Assembly (NCBI RefSeq): GCF_003122325.1
Contig: NZ_QFBC01000004.1
Coordinates: forward strand, 124,001 to 188,000
Reading direction: 5' to 3'
DNA from: Rhizobium album
GTDB lineage: Bacteria > Pseudomonadota > Alphaproteobacteria > Rhizobiales > Rhizobiaceae
DNA: 64,000 nt
Shown here one piece after another: positions 49,443 to 59,540 of the stretch. Position 1 is the stretch's first letter. Every line of letters begins with the position of its first letter. A program made the translations under genes and the position numbers. A model generated the notes under the pieces. The model was given only the letters and a program-made list of their open reading frames with translations. It was not told the origin of the DNA and ran no database searches.

Positions 49443-49955
49443 ATGTCCATTTCCGTCTACGATCTCACCGTCCCGGCGTTCCAGCGCGGCCTCGACGTCC
49501 TCTCCCACTATCTCGACAAGATCGAAGCCTATGCGCAGGACAACGGCGTGGATGCCAACGAGTTGCTGGGCGCCCGGCTCGCTCCGGACATGCACCCTTT
49601 TTCCGCGCAGATCCAGCGCGTCACGGACACCTCCAAGAACGCCCTCGGCCGCCTTTCCGGCCAGGAAGCGCCGCGCTTCGAGGACACCGAAACCACCATC
49701 GCCGAATTTCGCGCACGACTGGCCAAGGCGCGTGCCTATTTCGCCACCGTGACGCCGGAAAGCCTTGATGGCAGCGACAGCCGGGAGATCACCGTACCGC
49801 TCGGCCGCACCACCACGAAAGTGTTGTCCGGCAAGGACTATCTGACGAAGTTCGTTTTCCCGAATTTCTATTTCCACATCACCACCGCCCACGGCATTTT
49901 GCGCGCCCGCGGCCTGCCCGTCGGCAAGATGGACTATCTCGGCCCGATCGACTGA
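49443..49955 (+). CDS. DUF1993 family protein
   Basis: 170-residue soluble protein matching the DUF1993 pattern (SISVYDLTVPAFQRGLDVLSHYLDKIEAYA at the start; LTKFVFPNFYFHITTAHGILRARG... GKMDYLG at the end), a DinB-like four-helix fold in known members. Function unknown. AAGGGAG ribosome site before the ATG. Convergent with the tandem-HTH LysR gene, so it is not obviously part of the catabolic cluster beyond it. Confidence 0.8.
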   Translation: MSISVYDLTVPAFQRGLDVLSHYLDKIEAYAQDNGVDANELLGARLAPDMHPFSAQIQRVTDTSKNALGRLSGQEAPRFEDTETTIAEFRARLAKARAYFATVTPESLDGSDSREITVPLGRTTTKVLSGKDYLTKFVFPNFYFHITTAHGILRARGLPVGKMDYLGPID

Positions 49956-49976
49956 CCTGTCCACCCTCCGCAGCGC

Positions 49977-51176
49977 TCAGGCCCGCATGAGGGACAGGAG
50001 TTCCAGCACCTGCCGCTGAAGACCCTGCCCCGTGCGGGCCTTCGGCCAAGCGATCCACAGCGGCAGGCTGTGGGAGGGATGCAAGCTGACCTGCCGGAGT
50101 TCGCCCCCCATCGCCGCCAGCGAAACACTCGGCAGGATGGACAGGAAACCATGACGCCCGACGAGCTTGAGGATGACGGGGATCGAATCGACCTCGACGA
50201 TTTCCAGCCGCCGGCCGCGGCCATGGCCGAGGAGTTCGTCCAGCACCGGGTCGATCTTCTGCCGGAGGCCACTGCGCAGGCTGGGGATCGCCACCGGATG
50301 ACGAAGCAGCAAGGCCGTCAGCGCCGCCGGATCGTCGAGGCGGACGCCGTCCATTTCCGACGCCCGGCCGACGAGGGCCAGCGGCGAGGCTGAGAGCAGC
50401 CGGCCGTCGAGATCGTCCGGCAGGGTTTCGACATCGAGCAGGACGACGTCGAACAGGCCGCGTCGCAGGCTGTTCAGCAGTTCCTCGGCGATCATCGAGG
50501 AAATGAACACCGGCTGGCGCGGATGGGCAAGCCGCCACCCCGCCGCCAGGTCGGCGAGGAAATCGGCGATCTGGCTGTCCGGCCCGAGCGGGATGACCGA
50601 GCCGATGCGCACCACCGTTTCGGTACGGCGGAAACGTTCGTCGGCGGCATTGGTCAGGTCGTGCCAGAGCCGTTCGATGCGCCGGATGATGTCGACGGCA
50701 CGCTCGCCGGTTCGCGTCGGCGCCGCACCGCTGCGACCACGCTCCAGCACCGCATAACCCAGGACCGCCTCGACATGGGCGATCTGCCGCGTCAACTGCG
50801 GCTGGCCAAGACCGAGTTCGCGCGCCGCGGCGCGGATGCTGCCGATGCGCGCTACATGCAGAAGGCGGATCAGCGCGTCGAAACTCAGCATCTTGCCGGC
50901 AAGGGCTGCAACGCCGGGCGCCGGCCGGCCGTCGGCAATGAACAGCTCCGCGGCCAGATTGCTGAGTTCCTTCAATCTCGGCAGCAGGCGGCTGCCTTCG
51001 AGCGTCAGCATCAAGGAGGAGCCGGTTTTCTGCACCAGCGGCATGGCAAGCTCGGCCTCCATCCGGCGGATCGCGGCGGCAACCGAAGCCGGCGGGCGGG
51101 AGAGCGCCCGTGCCGTGGCCCGCAGGTTCTTCAGCTCCAGAACGATCGTCGTAGCAAGCACCGTCGCCGTGTCCAT
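49977..51176 (-). CDS. LysR-type regulator with two tandem HTH domains
   Basis: 399 residues from ATG 51176 (an ATG at 51212 is also open). Residues ~5-65 look like a LysR winged helix (ARALSRPPASVAAAIRRMEA, then LTLEGSRLL). Residues ~100-160 are a second, more canonical one (SIRAAARELGLGQPQLTRQI, then PTRTGERAV). The effector-binding domain spans ~186-395. Typical LysR proteins are ~300 residues with one HTH. It is divergent from the lyase operon at 51286, with a palindrome in the 109-base gap, and is its likely regulator. Effector unknown; a histidine betaine or pathway intermediate is an inference. Confidence 0.85.
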   Translation of the reverse strand: MDTATVLATTIVLELKNLRATARALSRPPASVAAAIRRMEAELAMPLVQKTGSSLMLTLEGSRLLPRLKELSNLAAELFIADGRPAPGVAALAGKMLSFDALIRLLHVARIGSIRAAARELGLGQPQLTRQIAHVEAVLGYAVLERGRSGAAPTRTGERAVDIIRRIERLWHDLTNAADERFRRTETVVRIGSVIPLGPDSQIADFLADLAAGWRLAHPRQPVFISSMIAEELLNSLRRGLFDVVLLDVETLPDDLDGRLLSASPLALVGRASEMDGVRLDDPAALTALLLRHPVAIPSLRSGLRQKIDPVLDELLGHGRGRRLEIVEVDSIPVILKLVGRHGFLSILPSVSLAAMGGELRQVSLHPSHSLPLWIAWPKARTGQGLQRQVLELLSLMRA

Positions 51177-51224
51177 GATCGCGCTTTCGCCTTGGTTTTG
51201 TTGCCACATCATCCGTTCATGATT

Positions 51225-51236
51225 TGGGATATCCCA
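51225..51236. promoter_or_regulatory. Candidate LysR operator palindrome
   Basis: The perfect 12-bp palindrome TGGGATATCCCA lies between the divergent LysR gene and the lyase operon, 50 bases before the lyase start. It resembles the core of a LysR box (T-N10/11-A with dyad symmetry). Confidence 0.45.
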
Positions 51237-51285
51237 CAGACGGGGATGTTTGAATAGTGTTCGCGAAGCAGGAGACGACCAAAGC

Positions 51286-52869
51286 ATGACAGGCCCCCAT
51301 CCCACCATCGAACTGACCGGCCAGCCGCTCGGCTTTGCCGAGCTAATGGAGATCGGTGCCGGCCGCATCCTGCCCGTCGCATCGCCCGCCGGCATGGCGC
51401 GGGTGGAGATGGCGCGCGGCATTCTCGAAGAGGCGATTGCCAGGGGCGTGCCGGTCTACGGCTCCACCACCGGCGTCGGCGCGATGAAGGATGTCGAGTG
51501 GTCGCCCGACGAACTCGATGCATTCAATCTCGGCCTGGTGCGGGCCCATCATTTCGGCACAGGTTCGCCCTTTCCCTGCTCGGTGGTGCGCAACGCCATG
51601 GCAATCCGCGTCAACACGGCATTGACCGGTTACGTCGGCTGCTCGACGGACCTGGTGGAAGCCTACCTCGACCTGCTTGCCGCCGACGTCATTCCGGTGG
51701 TGCGCCGCACCGGCTCCATCGGCTGCGCCGATATCGGCCTGATGGGCCAGATCGGCGCGGTGCTGACCGGCGTCGGCGAAGCCCGTTTCCGGGGTGAGCG
51801 CATGTCGGCCGAAGCGGCCTTCCTGGCCGCCGGTCTTGCGCCGCTGCGCATGGCGCCGCGCGACAGCCTTGCCTCGCTCAGCGTCAACGCCGTGAGTTTT
51901 GCCGCCGCGGCGGAGGCGACCCGCGACGCGGCCACCGCCATCCGAATGATGCTGGCGACGGCGCTGATGTCGGCCGGTGCGCTCGGCGCCTCGCGCCACC
52001 CATGGCAGGCGGTCGTGCATGTCGGCACGGCACGGGAAGCGCTGATCGGCTCCTGGCTCTGCCGCGCCGCGGACGACTGGGACTGGCCGGTCGCGACCCA
52101 CATCCAGGACCCGCTCAGCCTGCGGATGATCGCCCAGGTTTTCGGCGCCGTGTTCGAAAGCCTTCTGACCGCCGGCCACAAGATCCTCGCCGCCACCGGC
52201 CGCTCCGACGACAATCCCGTCGTCGTCGAGGGCAAGGTCCTGACCTCAGGCGGCTCATTGCCGCTCGACGTCACCATCCTGCTCGAAGCCGCTGCCATCT
52301 GCATGGCGCATGCGGCCCGTAACTCCTTCAACCGCTGCGTCCTGCTCGGCAACGGCCAGCGGCGCAACCTGCCGGTCAACCTGGTGCCGGAAGGCCGCAT
52401 CGCCACCGGCTTCGGCCCGGTGATCAAGCTCGCCGGCGAGATTTTTTCGCGCGTATTGTCGATGTCCAATCCGGTCTCGGCGCAGTCGCTGGTCGTGGCC
52501 TCCGGCATGGAGGATGAGGCTGCCTTCCTGCCGCTGGTGATCGAGCGTTTTGGCCGACAGGTGGAAGCGGTCAAGCGCCTCTCGGCGCTGGAGGCCCTGC
52601 TTTCGGCCCAGGCGATGGATATTCTCGGCGACAAGCCCGGCGGCGTGCCGAAGATGCTCTACGACATCGTGCGCAAGCATGCGGATTTTTACGTCGTCGA
52701 CCGGCCGCTTTCTTCCGAGGTGGAAGCGATCGAGGAGGAACTGTCTTCGGAGCGTGTCGTCGGAGATCTCGCCGCTCAGGTGCCGATCGCCTCCATCGAC
52801 GATTTTTTCGCGCTTTGCCCCCATCCACGCGACAACAGCCAGCGTCTGCCGGACGCGCTGTCCGCCTGA
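51286..52869 (+). CDS. HAL/PAL-family lyase lacking the MIO triad; probable ergothionase-type trimethylammonia-lyase
   Basis: 527 residues with the aromatic-amino-acid lyase fold throughout: VYGSTTGVG (Tyr58, equivalent to HAL Tyr53), RAHHFGTG, DSLASLSVNAVSF, IQDPLSLRMIAQVFGA (Arg280, as HAL Arg283) and TSGGSLPLDV. At the MIO position, where HAL/PAL read GSxGASGDLxPL, this protein reads GSIGCADIGLMG (Cys147-Ala148-Asp149), so the Ala-Ser-Gly-derived cofactor cannot form. Ergothionases eliminate trimethylamine from ergothioneine without MIO, which fits. AGGAG precedes ATG 51286. First gene of a five-gene set; the product would be (S-methyl)thiourocanate. Alternative: another betaine lyase, e.g. 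on hercynine. Confidence 0.75.
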   Translation: MTGPHPTIELTGQPLGFAELMEIGAGRILPVASPAGMARVEMARGILEEAIARGVPVYGSTTGVGAMKDVEWSPDELDAFNLGLVRAHHFGTGSPFPCSVVRNAMAIRVNTALTGYVGCSTDLVEAYLDLLAADVIPVVRRTGSIGCADIGLMGQIGAVLTGVGEARFRGERMSAEAAFLAAGLAPLRMAPRDSLASLSVNAVSFAAAAEATRDAATAIRMMLATALMSAGALGASRHPWQAVVHVGTAREALIGSWLCRAADDWDWPVATHIQDPLSLRMIAQVFGAVFESLLTAGHKILAATGRSDDNPVVVEGKVLTSGGSLPLDVTILLEAAAICMAHAARNSFNRCVLLGNGQRRNLPVNLVPEGRIATGFGPVIKLAGEIFSRVLSMSNPVSAQSLVVASGMEDEAAFLPLVIERFGRQVEAVKRLSALEALLSAQAMDILGDKPGGVPKMLYDIVRKHADFYVVDRPLSSEVEAIEEELSSERVVGDLAAQVPIASIDDFFALCPHPRDNSQRLPDALSA

Positions 52870-52899
52870 GCCTTCGAACCCGGGAAAAAGAGGAAGACC

Positions 52900-54276
52900 A
52901 TGGCTGATTTCGATCTGGTTCTGAAAGGCACGGTGGTCCTGCCCGACCGTGTGGTCGAATCCGGTTATGTCGCCGTCAGCGGCGGCAAGATTTCCGAGGT
53001 CGGCCAGGGTGTCGCCCCCGCGGCGAAGGAGTGCCACGATCTCGGCGCCGCCTTGATCCTGCCGGGCGCCATCGACGCCCAGGTGCACTCGCTGTCGCAG
53101 AAGAACCAGGAGGATTTCATCTGGTCGACGCGCTCGGCGGCCGCCGGCGGCGTGACGACCATCGTCGACATGCCTTATGACGAGGGCAACCTGGTCTGTT
53201 CGGCCGAAGCGGTGAAAAAGAAGGTCGATCACGCCGGCCCGCAGGCCCGCGTCGACTTTGCGCTCTACGGCACGATCGATCCGGAGGAAGGTCCGGCGCG
53301 CATCGCCGAGATGGTGGCGGCCGGGGTTTCCGCCTTCAAATTTTCCACCTTCGGCACCGACCCGAAACGGTTCCCGCGCATTCCCCCCGCGCTGCTCGAC
53401 GCCTGTTTTGCGGCGATAGCCCCGACCGGCCTGACCGCCGGCGTCCACAACGAGGACGACGAGGCGGTGCATGCCTACATGGCGAAGGTGAAAAGATCGG
53501 GCATCACCGACTGGCGCGCCCACGGCCTGTCGCGGCCGCCGATCACCGAACTTTTGGCCATGCACACCATCTTCGAGACCGGCGCGCAGACCGGTTGCCC
53601 CTCGCATGTGGTGCATTGCTCGCTCGGCCGCGGTTACGACATCGCCCATGCCTATCGCCGCGACGGTTTCGAGGCGACGGTGGAATGCTGCATCCACTAC
53701 CTGACGCTGGACGAAGAAAACGACGTCAGGCGCCTGGGCGGCAAGGCCAAGATCAACCCGCCCATCCGCCCGCGCGCCGAGGTCGAAACTTTGTGGCGCA
53801 AGGTCAGCGAAGGCAAGGTCTGGCTGGTTTCGACCGACCATGTCAGCTGGTCGGAAGAGCGCAAGACCAACCCGGACATGCTGGCCAACTCCTCCGGCGT
53901 GCCGGGTTTGGAAGTCATGGTGCCGCTCTTCGTCAAGGGTGCGCTGGAACGCGGCATTCCGCTGTTCTGGGCGGCGCGGTTGATGGCTGAGAATCCGGCT
54001 AAACATTTCCGCCTTGACCACGTCAAGGGTGCGCTCACCCCCGGCAGGGACGCCGATATCACCGTGTTGACGCCGGAGGAGACGGTCTACGATGCCGCCG
54101 CCAGCGGCCACAATATCGTCGGCTGGAGCCCCTATAACGGCATCCGCCTGCCCTACCGGGTCTCCGGAACCTATCTGCGCGGCAAGCTCGCTTTCGACGG
54201 CAGCAAGGTGCTGGCCGAGCCGGGGACCGGCGCCTTCGTCCGCCCGCCGCTCCGCCACGTTCTGGCCGGAGCATGA
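52900..54276 (+). CDS. Cyclic amidohydrolase (hydantoinase family), probable hydantoin-5-propionate hydrolase
   Basis: 458-residue amidohydrolase-superfamily enzyme. Metal-site residues line up with D-hydantoinases: His63, Lys147 (AGVSAFKFST, carbamylated Lys), His183 (GVHNEDDEA), His239 (SHVVHCS) and Asp313 (STDHVSW). The first His of the usual DxHxH is Gln61 (IDAQVH), a variant also found in some dihydroorotase-like enzymes. In this context ring opening of hydantoin-5-propionate to N-carbamoyl-glutamate is proposed. It starts 30 bases after the lyase and 4 bases before the M20 gene. A general dihydropyrimidinase or allantoinase is less likely given the neighbours. Confidence 0.8.
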   Translation: MADFDLVLKGTVVLPDRVVESGYVAVSGGKISEVGQGVAPAAKECHDLGAALILPGAIDAQVHSLSQKNQEDFIWSTRSAAAGGVTTIVDMPYDEGNLVCSAEAVKKKVDHAGPQARVDFALYGTIDPEEGPARIAEMVAAGVSAFKFSTFGTDPKRFPRIPPALLDACFAAIAPTGLTAGVHNEDDEAVHAYMAKVKRSGITDWRAHGLSRPPITELLAMHTIFETGAQTGCPSHVVHCSLGRGYDIAHAYRRDGFEATVECCIHYLTLDEENDVRRLGGKAKINPPIRPRAEVETLWRKVSEGKVWLVSTDHVSWSEERKTNPDMLANSSGVPGLEVMVPLFVKGALERGIPLFWAARLMAENPAKHFRLDHVKGALTPGRDADITVLTPEETVYDAAASGHNIVGWSPYNGIRLPYRVSGTYLRGKLAFDGSKVLAEPGTGAFVRPPLRHVLAGA

Positions 54277-54280
54277 GCCG

Positions 54281-55570
54281 ATGAGCCGCAACCTGCCTGT
54301 CGATGCCGACCGTATCGCCGAAGACATCGATGCGCTGGCGGCGATCACCGAGGAAGGCCACCCCTATACCCGTCGCGCCTTCTCGCCGCTGTTCCTCAAG
54401 GGCCGCGCCTATATCGAAGCGCGGATGAAGGCGGCGGGCCTCGAAACCCGTATCGATGCCGGCGGCAACCTCATCGGCCTTCGTCGCGGCCGGAACCCGG
54501 CGCTCGGCACCATCATGCTCGGCTCGCATTCCGACACGGTACCGAATGGTGGTCGCTTCGACGGCGTTGCCGGCGTCATTGCCGCGCTGGAGGTCGCCCG
54601 TGCCCTCGAAGACCAGGGCACGGCGCTGAACCACAATCTGGAGATCGTCGATTTCCTGGCGGAAGAAGTGTCGCCTTTCGGCGTTTCCTGCGTCGGCAGC
54701 CGTGGCATGACCGGGCAGCTCCCCGATGCCTGGCTCGGCCGCACCGCGGAGGGCCGCACGCTGCACCAGGCGATCATCGACATGGGCGGCAATGCCGGCG
54801 TGCTGGCGCGGCAATCCCGCCCCGACATTGCCGGTTTCCTGGAACTGCATATCGAGCAGGGACCGATCCTGGAGATGGAAGGCCGCGATATCGGCGTGGT
54901 CACCGCGATTGCCGGCATCACCCGCATCGAGGTGACCATCGAGGGCCGCGCCGACCATGCCGGCACGACGCCGATGACCGGCCGGGCCGATGCGCTCGTC
55001 GCCGCCTCGCAACTTGTGCTCGACATCCGCCAGGCCGCCACCAGTCTCGGCACCGGCCGGGCCACCCATTTCACCGCAACGGTCGGCGAATTCCGCATCG
55101 AGCCGAATGCCGCCAACGTCGTGCCGTCGAAGGTGGTGCTCTTGATCGATGCCCGCGCCGAACTGCGCGACGACATGTTGACCTTCATGCGCTGGCTGGA
55201 CGAGACCGCCAAGCGGATTTCTGACGATTACGGCGTGTCCGTGCTGCCGCCGGTAACGATCTCCGACAATCAGCCGACACCCGGTCACCCGGACCTGCTC
55301 ACCATCCTCGACCGCGCCGCCGATTCGGTCGGCGCCAGCCATCGCCGCATGGCCTCGGGGGCCGGCCACGACACCGCCTGGATCGCCAAGGTGGCGCCGG
55401 CGGCGATGATCTTCGTGCCGTGCAAGGACGGCCGCAGCCACTCCGCCGACGAATGGGCGGAGAACGACGACATAGCGCTCGGCGCGGCGGTGCTTTTGCG
55501 CGCCACGCTGGCCATGGATGAACTTCTGCCCACACTTCAGGAGAACCGGAATGGGACGCATACTCGTTGA
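54281..55570 (+). CDS. M20 family N-carbamoyl-L-amino-acid amidohydrolase (HyuC/allantoate amidohydrolase-like)
   Basis: 429-residue dinuclear-metal amidohydrolase. The M20 set is complete: GSHSDTVPNGGRFDG (His83, Asp94), LAEEVSPFG (catalytic Glu128, Glu129), ELHIEQGP (His190), DHAGTTPM in the lid domain, SGAGHDT, and GRSHSADEWA near the C-terminus (last His ligand). The family hydrolyses N-carbamoyl amino acids, allantoate or ureidoglycolate. With the hydantoinase it would convert N-carbamoyl-L-glutamate to glutamate, CO2 and ammonia. Start ATG 54281; its 3' end overlaps the DUF917 gene by 20 bases. Confidence 0.85.
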   Translation: MSRNLPVDADRIAEDIDALAAITEEGHPYTRRAFSPLFLKGRAYIEARMKAAGLETRIDAGGNLIGLRRGRNPALGTIMLGSHSDTVPNGGRFDGVAGVIAALEVARALEDQGTALNHNLEIVDFLAEEVSPFGVSCVGSRGMTGQLPDAWLGRTAEGRTLHQAIIDMGGNAGVLARQSRPDIAGFLELHIEQGPILEMEGRDIGVVTAIAGITRIEVTIEGRADHAGTTPMTGRADALVAASQLVLDIRQAATSLGTGRATHFTATVGEFRIEPNAANVVPSKVVLLIDARAELRDDMLTFMRWLDETAKRISDDYGVSVLPPVTISDNQPTPGHPDLLTILDRAADSVGASHRRMASGAGHDTAWIAKVAPAAMIFVPCKDGRSHSADEWAENDDIALGAAVLLRATLAMDELLPTLQENRNGTHTR

Positions 55571-56645
55571 GAAGGATGTCGAGGCGGCCGTGAAGGGCGG
55601 CTCTGTTTACGCAGCCGGCGGCGGCGGCTGGGCCGACCACGGCCGCATGCTGGGTTATGCCGCCGTTTCGATCGGCAAGCCGGAACTGGTCTCGATCGAC
55701 GAATTGGCCGACAGCGACTGGATCGCCACCGCCGCCGCCATCGGTGCCCCCGCTTCGACCACACCGTGGGAAATGCGCGGCGTCGATTACGTCAAGGCGG
55801 TGCAGCTCCTGCAGGAGGCGCTCGGCGAAAGGATCGCCGGCCTGATCATCGGCCAGAACGGCCGCTCCTCGACGCTGAACGGCTGGCTGCCCTCCGCCAT
55901 CCTCGGCACCAAGGTGGTCGATGCCGTCGGCGACATCCGCGCCCATCCGACCGGCGACATGGGCTCGATCGGCATGGCCGGCTCGCCCGAGCAGATGATC
56001 CAGACCGCCGTCGGCGGCAATCGCGATGAGAACCGCTATATCGAGCTGGTGGTGCGCGGCGCCACCGCCAAGGTTTCGCCGATCCTGCGTGCCGCCTCCG
56101 ACCAGTCCGGCGGCTTCATCGCTTCCTGCCGCAACCCGTTGCGCGCCTCCTATGTCCGCACTCATGCCGCACTTGGCGGCATCTCCATGGCGCTTGCGCT
56201 CGGGGAGGCGATCATCGCGGCGGAAAAGAAGGGCGGCGGCGCCGTCATCGACGCCATCTGCAAGACGACCGGCGGCACGATCCTGGCCGAAGGCACGATC
56301 ACCAGGAAGGACGTCGTCTACACCAAGGAAGCCTTCGACATCGGCACCATAACCATCGGCGCCGGCGACAAGGCGGTAACGATGCATGTGATGAACGAAT
56401 ACATGGCGGTGAACGATGCCGGCGGCGCGCGGCTCGCCACCTTCCCCTCGGTCATCACCACGCTGTCGCCCGAGGGCGAGCCCCTGAGCGTCGGGCAGTT
56501 GAAGGAAGGCATGAACGTGCACATCCTGCATGTGCCGAAGGAGATCATCCCGCTTTCCGCCAGCGTGCTCGACCCGACCGTCTATCCCTCGGTGGAAAAG
56601 GCCATGGGGATCGATATCGCGAAATATGTGTTTGCAGGGCGGTAG
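55551..56645 (+). CDS. DUF917 / S-methyl-thiohydantoin desulfurase family protein
   Basis: 364 residues of the DUF917 family, whose N-terminal domain is now named after S-methyl-thiohydantoin desulfurase. Visible are the Gly-rich VYAAGGGGWADHGRML near residue 20, VVDAVGDIRAHPTGDMGS, and GGTILAEGTITRKDVVYTKE. The proposed reaction is removal of the (methyl)thiol from the thiohydantoin-propionate formed by the hydratase, giving hydantoin-5-propionate with H2S or methanethiol. AGGAG precedes ATG 55551, inside the M20 gene. DUF917 genes also occur beside hydantoinases in other contexts, so substrate specificity is inferred. Confidence 0.78.
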   Translation: MGRILVEKDVEAAVKGGSVYAAGGGGWADHGRMLGYAAVSIGKPELVSIDELADSDWIATAAAIGAPASTTPWEMRGVDYVKAVQLLQEALGERIAGLIIGQNGRSSTLNGWLPSAILGTKVVDAVGDIRAHPTGDMGSIGMAGSPEQMIQTAVGGNRDENRYIELVVRGATAKVSPILRAASDQSGGFIASCRNPLRASYVRTHAALGGISMALALGEAIIAAEKKGGGAVIDAICKTTGGTILAEGTITRKDVVYTKEAFDIGTITIGAGDKAVTMHVMNEYMAVNDAGGARLATFPSVITTLSPEGEPLSVGQLKEGMNVHILHVPKEIIPLSASVLDPTVYPSVEKAMGIDIAKYVFAGR

Positions 56646-56665
56646 GCCGCCATTCTCTCGATGCC

Positions 56666-56770
56666 GTCATCCTCGGGCTTGTCCCGAGGATCTACCCTCG
56701 GCTGCAAAGACAATGACGATAATGGCTATCTTTGCCGTGCTTGGACCCTCGGGACAAGCCCGATGGTGAC
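56666..56770. repeat. Long imperfect inverted repeat (rhizobial mosaic element) inside the catabolic operon
   Basis: 27-base arms at 56666-56692 and 56744-56770 match as reverse complements with three mismatches; the core TCGGGCTTGTCCCGAGG is itself nearly palindromic. This CTCGGGCTTGTCCCGAG motif is a familiar rhizobial intergenic repeat. It lies in the 256-base gap between the DUF917 and hydratase genes. Confidence 0.75.
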
Positions 56771-56814
56771 GCAGAAGAGGTTTTATAAGTTTGTCACCAA
56801 GCCGACGACGTTAA

Positions 56815-56864
56815 CTCACCTTCCTCTCCCCCGGGTGAAAAGATTCCCGTCGGGGTAGATGAGG
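56815..56864. repeat. Second palindromic repeat before the hydratase gene
   Basis: CTCACCTTCCTCTCCCCCGG with GATTCCCGTCGGGGTAGATG and AGG: a diverged relative of the units at 15621 and 49207. With the preceding element it fills most of the gap before the hydratase gene. Confidence 0.55.
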
Positions 56865-56901
56865 CGCCGGCCGACGCGCCGTAAACCATAAGGACACCAC
56901 C

Positions 56902-58563
56902 ATGCCCAAGCCCAACCCGCGTCACCCGAACTTTCCGATCCCCGGCGGCCCGGCGTTGCGCGCCAAGGGCTGGCGGCAGGAGGCGCTGCTGCGCCTGCTC
57001 GAAAACGTGCTCTCGGTCGGCGAGGACCCCGACAGCCTCGTTGTCTATGCCGCGTTGGGCAAGGCGGCCCGCAACTGGGCAGCGCATCGCGGCATCGTCA
57101 AGACATTGATCGAGATGGACGAGGACCAGACGCTGATTATCCAGTCGGGAAAACCGATCGGCCTCGTCAAGACCCATGCCAAGGCGCCGCTGGTGATCAT
57201 GGCCAACTGCAACATCGTCGGCCAATGGGCGAAAGCCGAGTATTTCTACGAGCTGCAGCGCAAGGGCCTGATCTGCTGGGGCGGGCTGACGGCCGGTGCC
57301 TGGCAATATATCGGCAGCCAGGGCGTCATCCAGGGCACCTACGAGATCTTCATGCGCATCGCGGAAAAGCGCTTCGGCGGCGAGCTGGCCGGGCGTTTCA
57401 TTCTCACCGCCGGCCTGGGCGGCATGGGCGGGGCGCAGCCGCTCGCCGGTCGCATGGCGGGTGCGGCGATCCTCTGCGTCGACATCGACCCGGCCCGCGC
57501 CGAGGCGCGCAAGAAGATCGGCTACCTCGAAGAGATCGCGCCGGACCTCGACGCGGCGCTCGCCATGATCGACGCCGCGGTCAGGGACAGGCGGCCGCTG
57601 TCGGTCGGCCTGGTTGGTAACGCCGCCGACATCTACCCGGAAATCGCCCGCCGCGGCATCGTGCCCGACATCGTCACCGACCAGACCTCGGCGCATGACC
57701 TCGTCTACGGCTACGTGCCGAAGGGCATGGGCCTGCAGGAGGTCCGCTCCTTGCGCGAGGACGGCCAGGGACAGCTGATGGCGGCGAGCCGCGCCTCGAT
57801 CGTCGACCACGTGCGCGCCATGCTGGATTTCCAGAAAAAGGGCTCGGAAGTCTTCGACAACGGCAACCTGATCCGCACCCAGGCACGCGAAGGCGGCGTC
57901 ACCAACTCCTTCGACATTCCGATCTTCACCGAAGCCTATCTGCGTCCGCTGTTCTGCCGGGCCATCGGCCCCTTCCGCTGGATGGCGCTGTCGGGCGAAG
58001 AAAGCGACATCGCCCGCATCGACGACCTGCTGCTGGAGATGTTCCCGGATAACAGGATCGTCACAAACTGGGTGCGGCTGGCCCGCCAGTACATCCCCTT
58101 CGAGGGGCTGCCGGCGCGCATCGCCTGGCTCGGCCACGGCGAGCGCACCGCGCTTGCCCGCGCCGTCAATACCCTCGTCGCCAGGGGCGAGCTGAAAGGC
58201 CCGGTCGCCTTTTCCCGCGACCACCTCGACGCCGGCGCCATGGCCCATCCCAACATCATGACCGAGCGGATGAAGGACGGCTCCGACGCCATCGCCGACT
58301 GGCCGCTGCTCGACGCCATGATGTTGTGCTCGTCGATGGCCGATCTCGTCGTCGTGCATTCCGGCGGCGGCGGTTATGCCGGCTACATGACAAGCTGCGG
58401 CGTCACCATCGTCGCCGACGGGACGTCCGAAGCCGACGAACGGCTCGACCACGCGCTGACCAACGACACGGCGCTCGGCGTCATGCGTTATGCCGATGCC
58501 GGCTACGAGGAGGCGCTGGACGAGGTGGGGAAGAAGGACGTGCCCTACATCCGTCTGGAATGA
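56902..58563 (+). CDS. Urocanase-family hydratase, probable (S-methyl)thiourocanate hydratase
   Basis: 553 residues, the HutU length. The NAD+-binding TAGLGGMGGAQPLAGRMAG (~169-187), DQTSAHDLVYGYVP, GPFRWMALSGE, SRDHLDAG and DGSDAIADWPLL are urocanase hallmarks. Two active-site features differ: the conserved Cys of ARICW (Cys410 in Pseudomonas) is Ala408 here (PARIAWLGHGER), and the usual LHHGGGVGMG is VVHSGGGGYAG. This suggests an altered substrate, consistent with thiourocanate or S-methyl-thiourocanate rather than urocanate. It follows the other four pathway genes on the same strand across a repeat-filled gap. Ordinary hutH, hutI and hutG are absent. Confidence 0.8.
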   Translation: MPKPNPRHPNFPIPGGPALRAKGWRQEALLRLLENVLSVGEDPDSLVVYAALGKAARNWAAHRGIVKTLIEMDEDQTLIIQSGKPIGLVKTHAKAPLVIMANCNIVGQWAKAEYFYELQRKGLICWGGLTAGAWQYIGSQGVIQGTYEIFMRIAEKRFGGELAGRFILTAGLGGMGGAQPLAGRMAGAAILCVDIDPARAEARKKIGYLEEIAPDLDAALAMIDAAVRDRRPLSVGLVGNAADIYPEIARRGIVPDIVTDQTSAHDLVYGYVPKGMGLQEVRSLREDGQGQLMAASRASIVDHVRAMLDFQKKGSEVFDNGNLIRTQAREGGVTNSFDIPIFTEAYLRPLFCRAIGPFRWMALSGEESDIARIDDLLLEMFPDNRIVTNWVRLARQYIPFEGLPARIAWLGHGERTALARAVNTLVARGELKGPVAFSRDHLDAGAMAHPNIMTERMKDGSDAIADWPLLDAMMLCSSMADLVVVHSGGGGYAGYMTSCGVTIVADGTSEADERLDHALTNDTALGVMRYADAGYEEALDEVGKKDVPYIRLE

Positions 58564-58967
58564 CAGGTCAGGCGCCTGACGCGCGGGACACATCGATATT
58601 GGCGGCCTGCGCTGCGGCAAACCAGCTGCAGAGGGCCACCACCAAGGCGACGGAAACCAGGGAGAGCCGGTGCAGCAGCGTCATATCGCCTTACCCATAC
58701 CCAGCCGACGCAGCCGGATGCGCTCGTATATGGCCGCGAACACCTGCAACCTCCCCGACCGCCGGCAGGCGCGGCGGCACATGGCCAATAGGTACGGATC
58801 AGATCGGCTGAGGGTATTCTATTTCGCCGGGACAGGAACTACGCACGGCCTGACTTTTTTTGCGCTTTACACCGTAAGACGCGATGCTTGCGAGCCGGCA
58901 GGCGCGTTGCAAGGCCGTGGCTATCCAAGGCCTTGCGTCCAGCGCATCTATTCGCGAGGCAGGCCGG
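58564..58967. other. 404-base gap without a firm gene
   Basis: Apart from the weak 38-codon reading frame described separately, this stretch holds only a 7-bp inverted repeat with a 12-nt loop (CAAGGCC at 58911-58917 with GGCCTTG at 58930-58936). No U-run, promoter consensus or RNA gene was recognised. Confidence 0.5.
58568..58684 (-). CDS. Possible 38-residue secreted or membrane peptide
   Basis: A short frame starting ATG 58684 (AAGGCGAT just before it) encodes a peptide with a basic start, a hydrophobic core (LVSVALVVALCSWF) and an AAAQA stretch like a signal-peptidase site, then only ten further residues. It is antisense to nothing and convergent with the hydratase. Length and lack of recognised homologues make it doubtful; it may be chance. 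Confidence 0.25.
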   Translation of the reverse strand: MTLLHRLSLVSVALVVALCSWFAAAQAANIDVSRASGA

Positions 58968-59540
58968 TCAGGCCTGGCCAGCCTGTTCGCCATCCTGTTT
59001 TTCGCAGAAGGCGATCCTGTTGCTGAACGGATCGGTGACCGTCATTTCCAGCCCCCAGGGCGCTTCTTCCACGCCGGGCTTCATGTAGCGGTAGTGTTTG
59101 CCGATCAGTTCCTCGCGGAACGCCCGCACCCCTGTCATCCACACGAAGGCCTTCGCCCCGGGAGACGCATCGCCGGCATGTTCGGAAAGATGCATGATCA
59201 GCCCGCTGCGGGACACCTGGCAGTAGAGCGGAAAATTCTCACCGAAACGATGCTCCCAATCGACAGTGAAGCCGAGGAAATCCCGATAGAATTCCATCGC
59301 CTTTTCGACCGAAAAAATCCGGAAGATCGGGATCGGCGGAGTGATGACCACCTTTTCCGCCGGCTTGGCCGGCGCAGACTCGGCTGCCTCTATGCGGGCC
59401 GCCAGGATATTCCAGTCATCGCAGCCGAACTGGGCGGCAATGATCTCAAGCGTTTCACTATGGGTCACGGAGACGTTGCGGTCGGCAAAGGCCTGACGAA
59501 GAACTTTGGCCATGAGTTTGGCATCGCGGAAATCGCGCAT
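58968..59540 (-). CDS. Glyoxalase-superfamily protein with N-terminal helical domain
   Basis: 190 residues. The first ~55 (MRDFRDAKLMAKVLRQAFADRNVSVTHSETLEIIAAQFG...) form the small helical domain found in glyoxalase-related proteins. Residues ~65-185 are a bleomycin-resistance/VOC domain (IPIFRIFSVEKAMEFYRDFL; WGLEMTVTDPFSNRIAFCE). Such two-part proteins have no settled substrate. ATG 59540 is preferred because conserved sequence begins there. Convergent with the hydratase. Confidence 0.8.
   Translation of the reverse strand: MRDFRDAKLMAKVLRQAFADRNVSVTHSETLEIIAAQFGCDDWNILAARIEAAESAPAKPAEKVVITPPIPIFRIFSVEKAMEFYRDFLGFTVDWEHRFGENFPLYCQVSRSGLIMHLSEHAGDASPGAKAFVWMTGVRAFREELIGKHYRYMKPGVEEAPWGLEMTVTDPFSNRIAFCEKQDGEQAGQA

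Follow-up and report, generated by a model that had tools for sequence, protein, structure and literature searches.

A predicted operon for ergothioneine breakdown to glutamate in Rhizobium album, with a lyase lacking the MIO tripeptide

The window analysed here is a 64,000 bp stretch of the 6.86 Mb draft genome of Rhizobium album (contig NZ_QFBC01000004.1, C34:124001-188000). Between its positions 49977 and 58563 lie five co-directional genes on the plus strand (51286-58563) and a divergent gene for a LysR-type regulator; an initial annotation had proposed them as a complete set for the catabolism of ergothioneine or S-methyl-ergothioneine. All six open reading frames (ORFs) were found open and intact at that place, and Pfam agrees with the family named for each of them. 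The five-gene set is interpreted, with a probability of about 0.88, as an ergothioneine catabolic operon. On the most likely reading, imported ergothioneine loses trimethylamine and sulfur and is converted to glutamate. The first of the five proposed steps is supported by homology, motif and genetic linkage, the other four by curated family models.

In the proposed route, the chromosomal operon would let the cell draw nitrogen, carbon and sulfur from external ergothioneine. A histidine ammonia-lyase (HAL) family protein devoid of the 4-methylideneimidazole-5-one (MIO) motif, probably an ergothioneine trimethylamine-lyase or ergothionase (51286-52869; Pfam Lyase_aromatic), would convert ergothioneine into thiourocanate and trimethylamine. 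ErtB, a predicted thiourocanate hydratase of the urocanase superfamily with three Pfam urocanase domains (56902-58563), would hydrate thiourocanate to 2-thiohydantoin propionate, from which ErtC, a predicted thiohydantoin desulfurase of the DUF917 / S-Me-THD family (55551-56645; Pfam S-Me-THD_N/C), would strip the sulfur to give hydantoin-5-propionate. The hydantoin ring would then be opened by ErtD, a predicted hydantoin-5-propionate amidohydrolase (52900-54276; Pfam Amidohydro_1), and the resulting N-carbamoyl-L-glutamate would be hydrolysed to L-glutamate, CO2 and NH3 by ErtE, a predicted N-carbamyl-L-glutamate amidohydrolase of the M20 type (54281-55570; Pfam Peptidase_M20). The genes lie on the DNA in the order lyase, ErtD, ErtE, ErtC, ErtB, which is not that of the reactions. 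The chemistry of each enzyme is presumably that of its named family.

Protein families were scored with the curated equivalog models of NCBIfam 20.0, each with its own cut-off in bits. Four of the five enzymes pass the cut-offs of models named for ergothioneine breakdown. ErtB scores 1049 bits with the thiourocanate hydratase model NF058530 (cut-off 930) and ErtC 604.6 bits with the thiohydantoin desulfurase model NF058529 (cut-off 440). ErtD reaches 786.2 bits with NF058538 (cut-off 600) and stays under the cut-off of the sister model NF058539 (382.5, cut-off 650). ErtE passes NF058540 with 596.6 bits (cut-off 520) and is matched with a higher score by NF009531, named 'Zn-dependent hydrolase' (711, cut-off 486). 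The closest solved relative of ErtB is 7ned, with 823 bits (the next scores 624), deposited under the name 'urocanate hydratase', which we take to be a thiourocanate hydratase. For ErtC a single weak solved relative was found (2o3i, 46 bits).

The same models bear on the substrate, for which the initial annotation had named ergothioneine and its S-methyl derivative alike; the former is supported and the latter disfavoured. A pathway for S-methyl-ergothioneine has been the subject of earlier work, and an operon serving it would form S-methyl thiourocanate by the action of the lyase, to be processed by an S-methyl hydratase and an S-methyl desulfurase. These enzymes belong to the same superfamilies as ErtB and ErtC, and the DUF917 domains are labelled S-Me-THD-like by Pfam. 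Nevertheless, both discriminating enzymes fall under the cut-offs of the S-methyl models, and well below their own scores with the thiol models: ErtB scores 739 of the required 880 with the S-methyl thiourocanate hydratase model NF058531, ErtC 281.4 of 450 with the S-methyl thiohydantoin desulfurase model NF058532. This speaks against S-methyl-ergothioneine. In addition, 8q9u and 8q9v, deposited just as 'urocanate hydratase' and presumably representing the S-methyl enzyme, score 582 and 581 against ErtB, versus 823 for 7ned. S-methyl-ergothioneine was therefore set aside as a very improbable substrate.

Ordinary histidine utilisation (hut), carried out by divergent enzymes, would explain why genes of the HAL and urocanase families share an operon, and ErtB does pass the broad hutU model (681, cut-off 375), yet with a lower score than that obtained with the thiourocanate hydratase model. 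The lack of a MIO motif, the presence of a desulfurase and the score of the hydratase on the thiourocanate model all argue the other way. No MIO-type HutH, HutI or HutG/HutF is encoded among the six genes of 49977-58563, in line with the remark of the initial annotation that no hutH/hutI/hutG set accompanies the urocanase, and a separate hut locus, composed of HutU, HutD, an amidohydrolase (HutI or HutF) and a HAL-family protein, is found on contig C62. In view of the family scores and of this separate locus, histidine utilisation was rejected as a function that is scarcely credible for the cluster.

Ergothioneine synthesis was searched for through EgtD only. No match was detected in the window genome, in a search where none of 14 control genomes passed the cut-off, so that a positive control is lacking. 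Within this limit, biosynthesis by the window genome was set aside, and the result is consistent with an external supply of ergothioneine. Together with the retention of a hut locus on C62, it indicates that the operon most likely uses ergothioneine from outside, ending at glutamate.

The lyase was assigned from its nearest solved relative and from its residues. Its best match among solved proteins is the ergothionase of Treponema denticola (6s7j, 184.5 bits), while the best histidine ammonia-lyase scores 139.6; a profile built on seven lyase rows again placed 6s7j first (244.6 versus 194.2 for histidine ammonia-lyase). In place of the GS(V)GASGD shown by MIO enzymes, the window lyase has the loop GSIGCADI, which bears out the earlier description of a lyase devoid of the Ala-Ser-Gly (ASG) tripeptide. 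Conservation was evaluated on an alignment of 88 lyases: the window, loci L055, L056, L058, L060, L062, L063 and L064, and 80 public loci, with two genomes counted twice (L055/L105 and L056/L066). L057, whose contig ends before the lyase, and L059, part of which is masked (loop GSMGCADI), were omitted, and L065, which has ASG, was counted apart. ASG is missing from all 88 sequences, which carry Cys147-Ala148 (Cys-Gly in one) ahead of Asp149; Cys147, Ala/Gly148, Asp149, Leu277, Asp308 and Lys381 are common to all of them. A MIO-type control from the same genome (L023) has ASG, Tyr277, Ser308 and Val381. ASG is equally missing from a second control (L024), which shares Leu277 but carries Thr308 and Tyr381; hence loss of MIO and Leu277 alone are not diagnostic of an ergothionase.

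The Treponema enzyme (6s7j/6s7q; Maurer et al. 2019, as cited in the accessible part of PMC13405746) belongs to the same HAL fold family. In the alignment it lacks ASG, shares the motifs QDPLS and DDNP with the window lyase and likewise has a lysine where the latter has Lys381. As read off the alignments, Lys381, Tyr58, His88 and Glu409 of the window lyase line up with identical residues of the Treponema protein. Similarity between the two is however distant, at 184.5 bits across some 480 residues, and the loop is GEGDI in Treponema and GCADI in the branch of the window. Loss of MIO and a Treponema-like Lys381 would fit a quaternary amine as leaving group, and the cluster lyase is predicted, from its sequence, to remove trimethylamine.

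The distribution of the cluster was first evaluated in 61 related genomes, in which G002 represents the same genus as the window genome and G031 the same family. Seven of them encode a thiourocanate hydratase above the cut-off; in an even class sample, this holds for 5 of 385 genomes, the window's own among them. A lyase of the ert type (at least 526 bits to the A1 profile) is present in six of the seven hydratase genomes and in none of the other 54. The profile scores fall into two groups, 526-988 bits in these six and at most 246 in the rest, an extra piece of 264 bits belonging to the split lyase of G013. In the seventh hydratase genome, G001, the contig end falls inside ertD. The association of lyase and hydratase gives a Fisher p of 1.3e-7, uncorrected for relatedness.

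In a collection holding one genome per species, 418 stretches encode relatives of the lyase, not all of which need be ert lyases. The counts for public loci given here refer to the best 80 of the 418, with lyases 77-87% identical to that of the window; being close relatives, 64 of them titled Rhizobium, these loci are not independent. The co-occurrence of the five families in other genomes, which the initial annotation had named as a check, is observed in 74 of the 80, where lyase, ertD, ertE, ertC and ertB follow each other in identical order and orientation. Among the exceptions, L098 breaks off shortly into ertD, L140 has no ertD and four loci show the lyase alone; ertB is found elsewhere in all four of the latter genomes, intact and above the cut-off in three. 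In the fourth, Shinella sp. UYSO24 (L167:6881-9654), ertC and ertB are split across several frames, by decay or assembly error. In G446 the stretch taken shows ertE-C-B with no ertD next to them.

Relatives of ErtB are also carried by plasmids: 9 of 705 urocanase-family records are at least 60% identical to it, including records from Ochrobactrum, Shinella, Paracoccus, Thalassospira and Burkholderia, so that the cluster extends beyond Rhizobium. Plasmid pAMI4 of Paracoccus aminophilus carries ertD-E-C-B, with no annotated lyase in the stretch shown, for which the gene table is incomplete. Three plasmid records contain a clear lyase of the ert type, named 'aromatic amino acid ammonia-lyase' in one and unnamed in two.

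No transporter gene stands beside the cluster, in keeping with the initial annotation, when the window's own stretch (L061) is searched. Genes for a betaine-type ATP-binding cassette (ABC) transporter are located between the lyase and ertD in 3 of 10 related loci. All four were typed in L063 (a quaternary-amine binding protein of the OpuAC family, two permeases and an ATPase), binding protein and ATPase in L058, and one permease and the ATPase in L062, where the binding protein was recognised by similarity. The window genome yields seven OpuAC matches, and a close copy of the relatives' transporter is encoded on contig C45 (L162:5007-8818, minus strand), with a binding protein 76.6% identical to that of L058, an ATPase that shares 66% identity, and a single permease typed next to the binding protein. 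Among solved chains, this binding protein matches 4nd9, 5teu and 5uve best (535-541 bits), which are deposited just as proline/glycine-betaine binding proteins; OsmF (4wep) scores 364 bits. The EgtU ergothioneine importer, described in PMC9732360 (Nat Commun 2022; accessible part), has a binding protein of the same OpuAC/ProX-type group, but the C45 protein is much closer to 4nd9/5teu/5uve and to OsmF than to the EgtUC chains (104-107 bits). On these similarities, the OsmF-like transporter of C45 is a candidate ergothioneine importer, and uptake probably occurs through a betaine-type transporter of this kind, encoded elsewhere in the genome.

Several observations weigh against the interpretation of the cluster as an ergothioneine operon. 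The lyase passes no NCBIfam cut-off, hutH-type models giving it only 222 of 524; the eight families listed for it do not include an ergothionase, of which the library may simply have none. Its AlphaFold model (predicted local distance difference test, pLDDT, 53) is too poor for a check of the active site. At E 1e-20, none of the 80 public loci matches the binding protein or ATPase of L058, and the binding proteins of both L058 and L063 are unmatched in the window's own stretch (L061) and in L055, L059, L060, L064 and L065; L056 was covered in this search through L066, and L057 lay outside it. The stretch taken for L064 yielded neither ertD nor ertE. The case for a single transcript is weakened by the gap of 256 bases, with a large hairpin, that precedes ertB. 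Finally, identity to the window varies between loci from 27 to 87% for the lyase, versus 68 to 94% for ErtB, and in L065 (6090-10606), where the stretch taken likewise showed no ertD or ertE, ertC and ertB adjoin a homologue of MIO-type histidine ammonia-lyases.

Since the lyase varies far more than ErtB, the lyases of different loci need not all act on one substrate, and in some lineages the gene may have been replaced or its product redirected to another compound. The L065 arrangement possibly serves a thiohistidine with a free amine. Along these lines, the cluster lyase could use hercynine or another histidine derivative, such as 2-thiohistidine, selenoneine or a methylated histidine, with ergothioneine as one of several inputs. 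This alternative draws on the lyase gene varying more than any other in the cluster and on the pairing, in one relative locus, of ertC and ertB with a MIO-type lyase, as a free-amine substrate might need. Elimination from hercynine would yield urocanate, however, which the hut locus of the genome could process without ErtC; ErtB and ErtC are of thiol-specific types, and the loss of MIO with Lys381 would suit a quaternary amine. Such a substrate is judged improbable, less so than S-methyl-ergothioneine, and ergothioneine remains the preferred one.

Other HAL-family proteins were noted during the searches. The one of the C62 hut locus (L161:11033-12538, minus strand) lacks the MIO tripeptide (GSVGY followed by LTHAA) and Lys381; it scores 481, under the hutH cut-off of 524, and matches histidine ammonia-lyases with 289 bits versus 173 for ergothionase. 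Hercynine or some other betaine might be its substrate. A MIO-type HAL is encoded on contig C7 of the window genome (L163). On plasmid pRL12 of Rhizobium johnstonii 3841 (L170:7887-9392), a gene annotated hutH is flanked by hutC and a gene for a glycine betaine binding protein; its product lacks ASG (GSIGAADLAP), contains QDPLSYR and VQKTV and resembles the Treponema ergothionase by eye, so that it is possibly a misnamed betaine lyase.

The divergent regulator (49977-51176, minus strand) is made up of two tandem N-terminal helix-turn-helix (HTH) domains, Pfam HTH_1, before a single LysR_substrate domain. The same architecture was found in all seven ert-linked regulators scanned (window, L056, L059, L060, L165, L166 and L169, the last from pAMI4), leaving out that of L058, which is cut off. 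Further in-frame starts exist upstream (ORF 49977-51422), while the ATG at 51176 agrees with the relatives. A close relative lies by the cluster in only one of the 80 public loci (L066, E 1e-20); most Rhizobium ert clusters are therefore probably under other regulation. In the window genome, the protein probably turns the operon on in response to a compound of the pathway. Its AlphaFold model is unusable (pLDDT 40). A literature search on LysR proteins with two HTH domains retrieved only work on hydrothermal-vent plasmids, which is no proof that such proteins are undescribed.

The plus-strand genes are spaced by 30, 4, -20 and 256 bases, and an alternative TTG start is possible for the lyase at 51250. 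Much of the ertC-ertB gap is occupied by a hairpin, a palindromic stem-loop repeat at 56665-56775: the segment 56646-56790 has a fold energy z of -6.8 relative to shuffled sequences, and the 19-base core pattern of the hairpin occurs in seven copies genome-wide, versus none for the pattern read backwards. No Rfam family was matched at the gathering threshold in 49500-59000, and scans of the locus for promoters and terminators performed no better than on shuffled sequence. The upstream neighbours of the cluster were read, from their translations only, as mutM, ubiE and ubiB.

Five-step ergothioneine catabolism was reconstituted in vitro in 2021 (Beliaeva, Leisinger and Seebeck, ACS Chem Biol 16:397, as cited in the accessible part of PMC9732360). 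Since the route is already published, and NCBI models name four of the enzymes, the cluster does not represent a novel type of system. The enzyme types reportedly used in that reconstitution are the same five as in the window, with the difference that the window lyase branches off far from the solved ergothionase. Novelty is modest and resides in the unnamed branch of lyases and in the double DNA-binding domain of the LysR regulator. Searches of the open-licence literature retrieved no description of rhizobial ert clusters, which does not prove that they are undescribed. A more specific picture, in which rhizobial ert systems have a GCAD-loop lyase branch of their own, a two-HTH LysR protein sensing an ergothioneine-derived signal and an OsmF-type transporter as main importer, is offered tentatively, as a proposal somewhat more likely to fail than to hold in full.

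Ergothioneine producers include fungi and actinobacteria (PMC7653990, accessible part). The accessible text of PMC13405746 (2026) describes ergothionase as lacking MIO and as definitively identified in few microorganisms only, Agrobacterium radiobacter among them, and reports that BLAST had returned only names of histidine, phenylalanine and tyrosine ammonia-lyases (HAL/PAL/TAL). The 418 lyase relatives, the 74 complete clusters among 80 public loci and the plasmid lyases with a general name or none indicate that ergothioneine breakdown is probably more widespread in soil and root bacteria than gene names suggest. The GSIGCADI motif, combined with Lys381, could aid the naming of ergothionases. 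Three parts merit further attention: the branch of lyases, the regulator with two HTH domains and the transporter. If rhizobia do have ert parts of their own, many soil and root bacteria would be consumers of ergothioneine, contrary to the view that few microorganisms are definitively known to have ergothionase.

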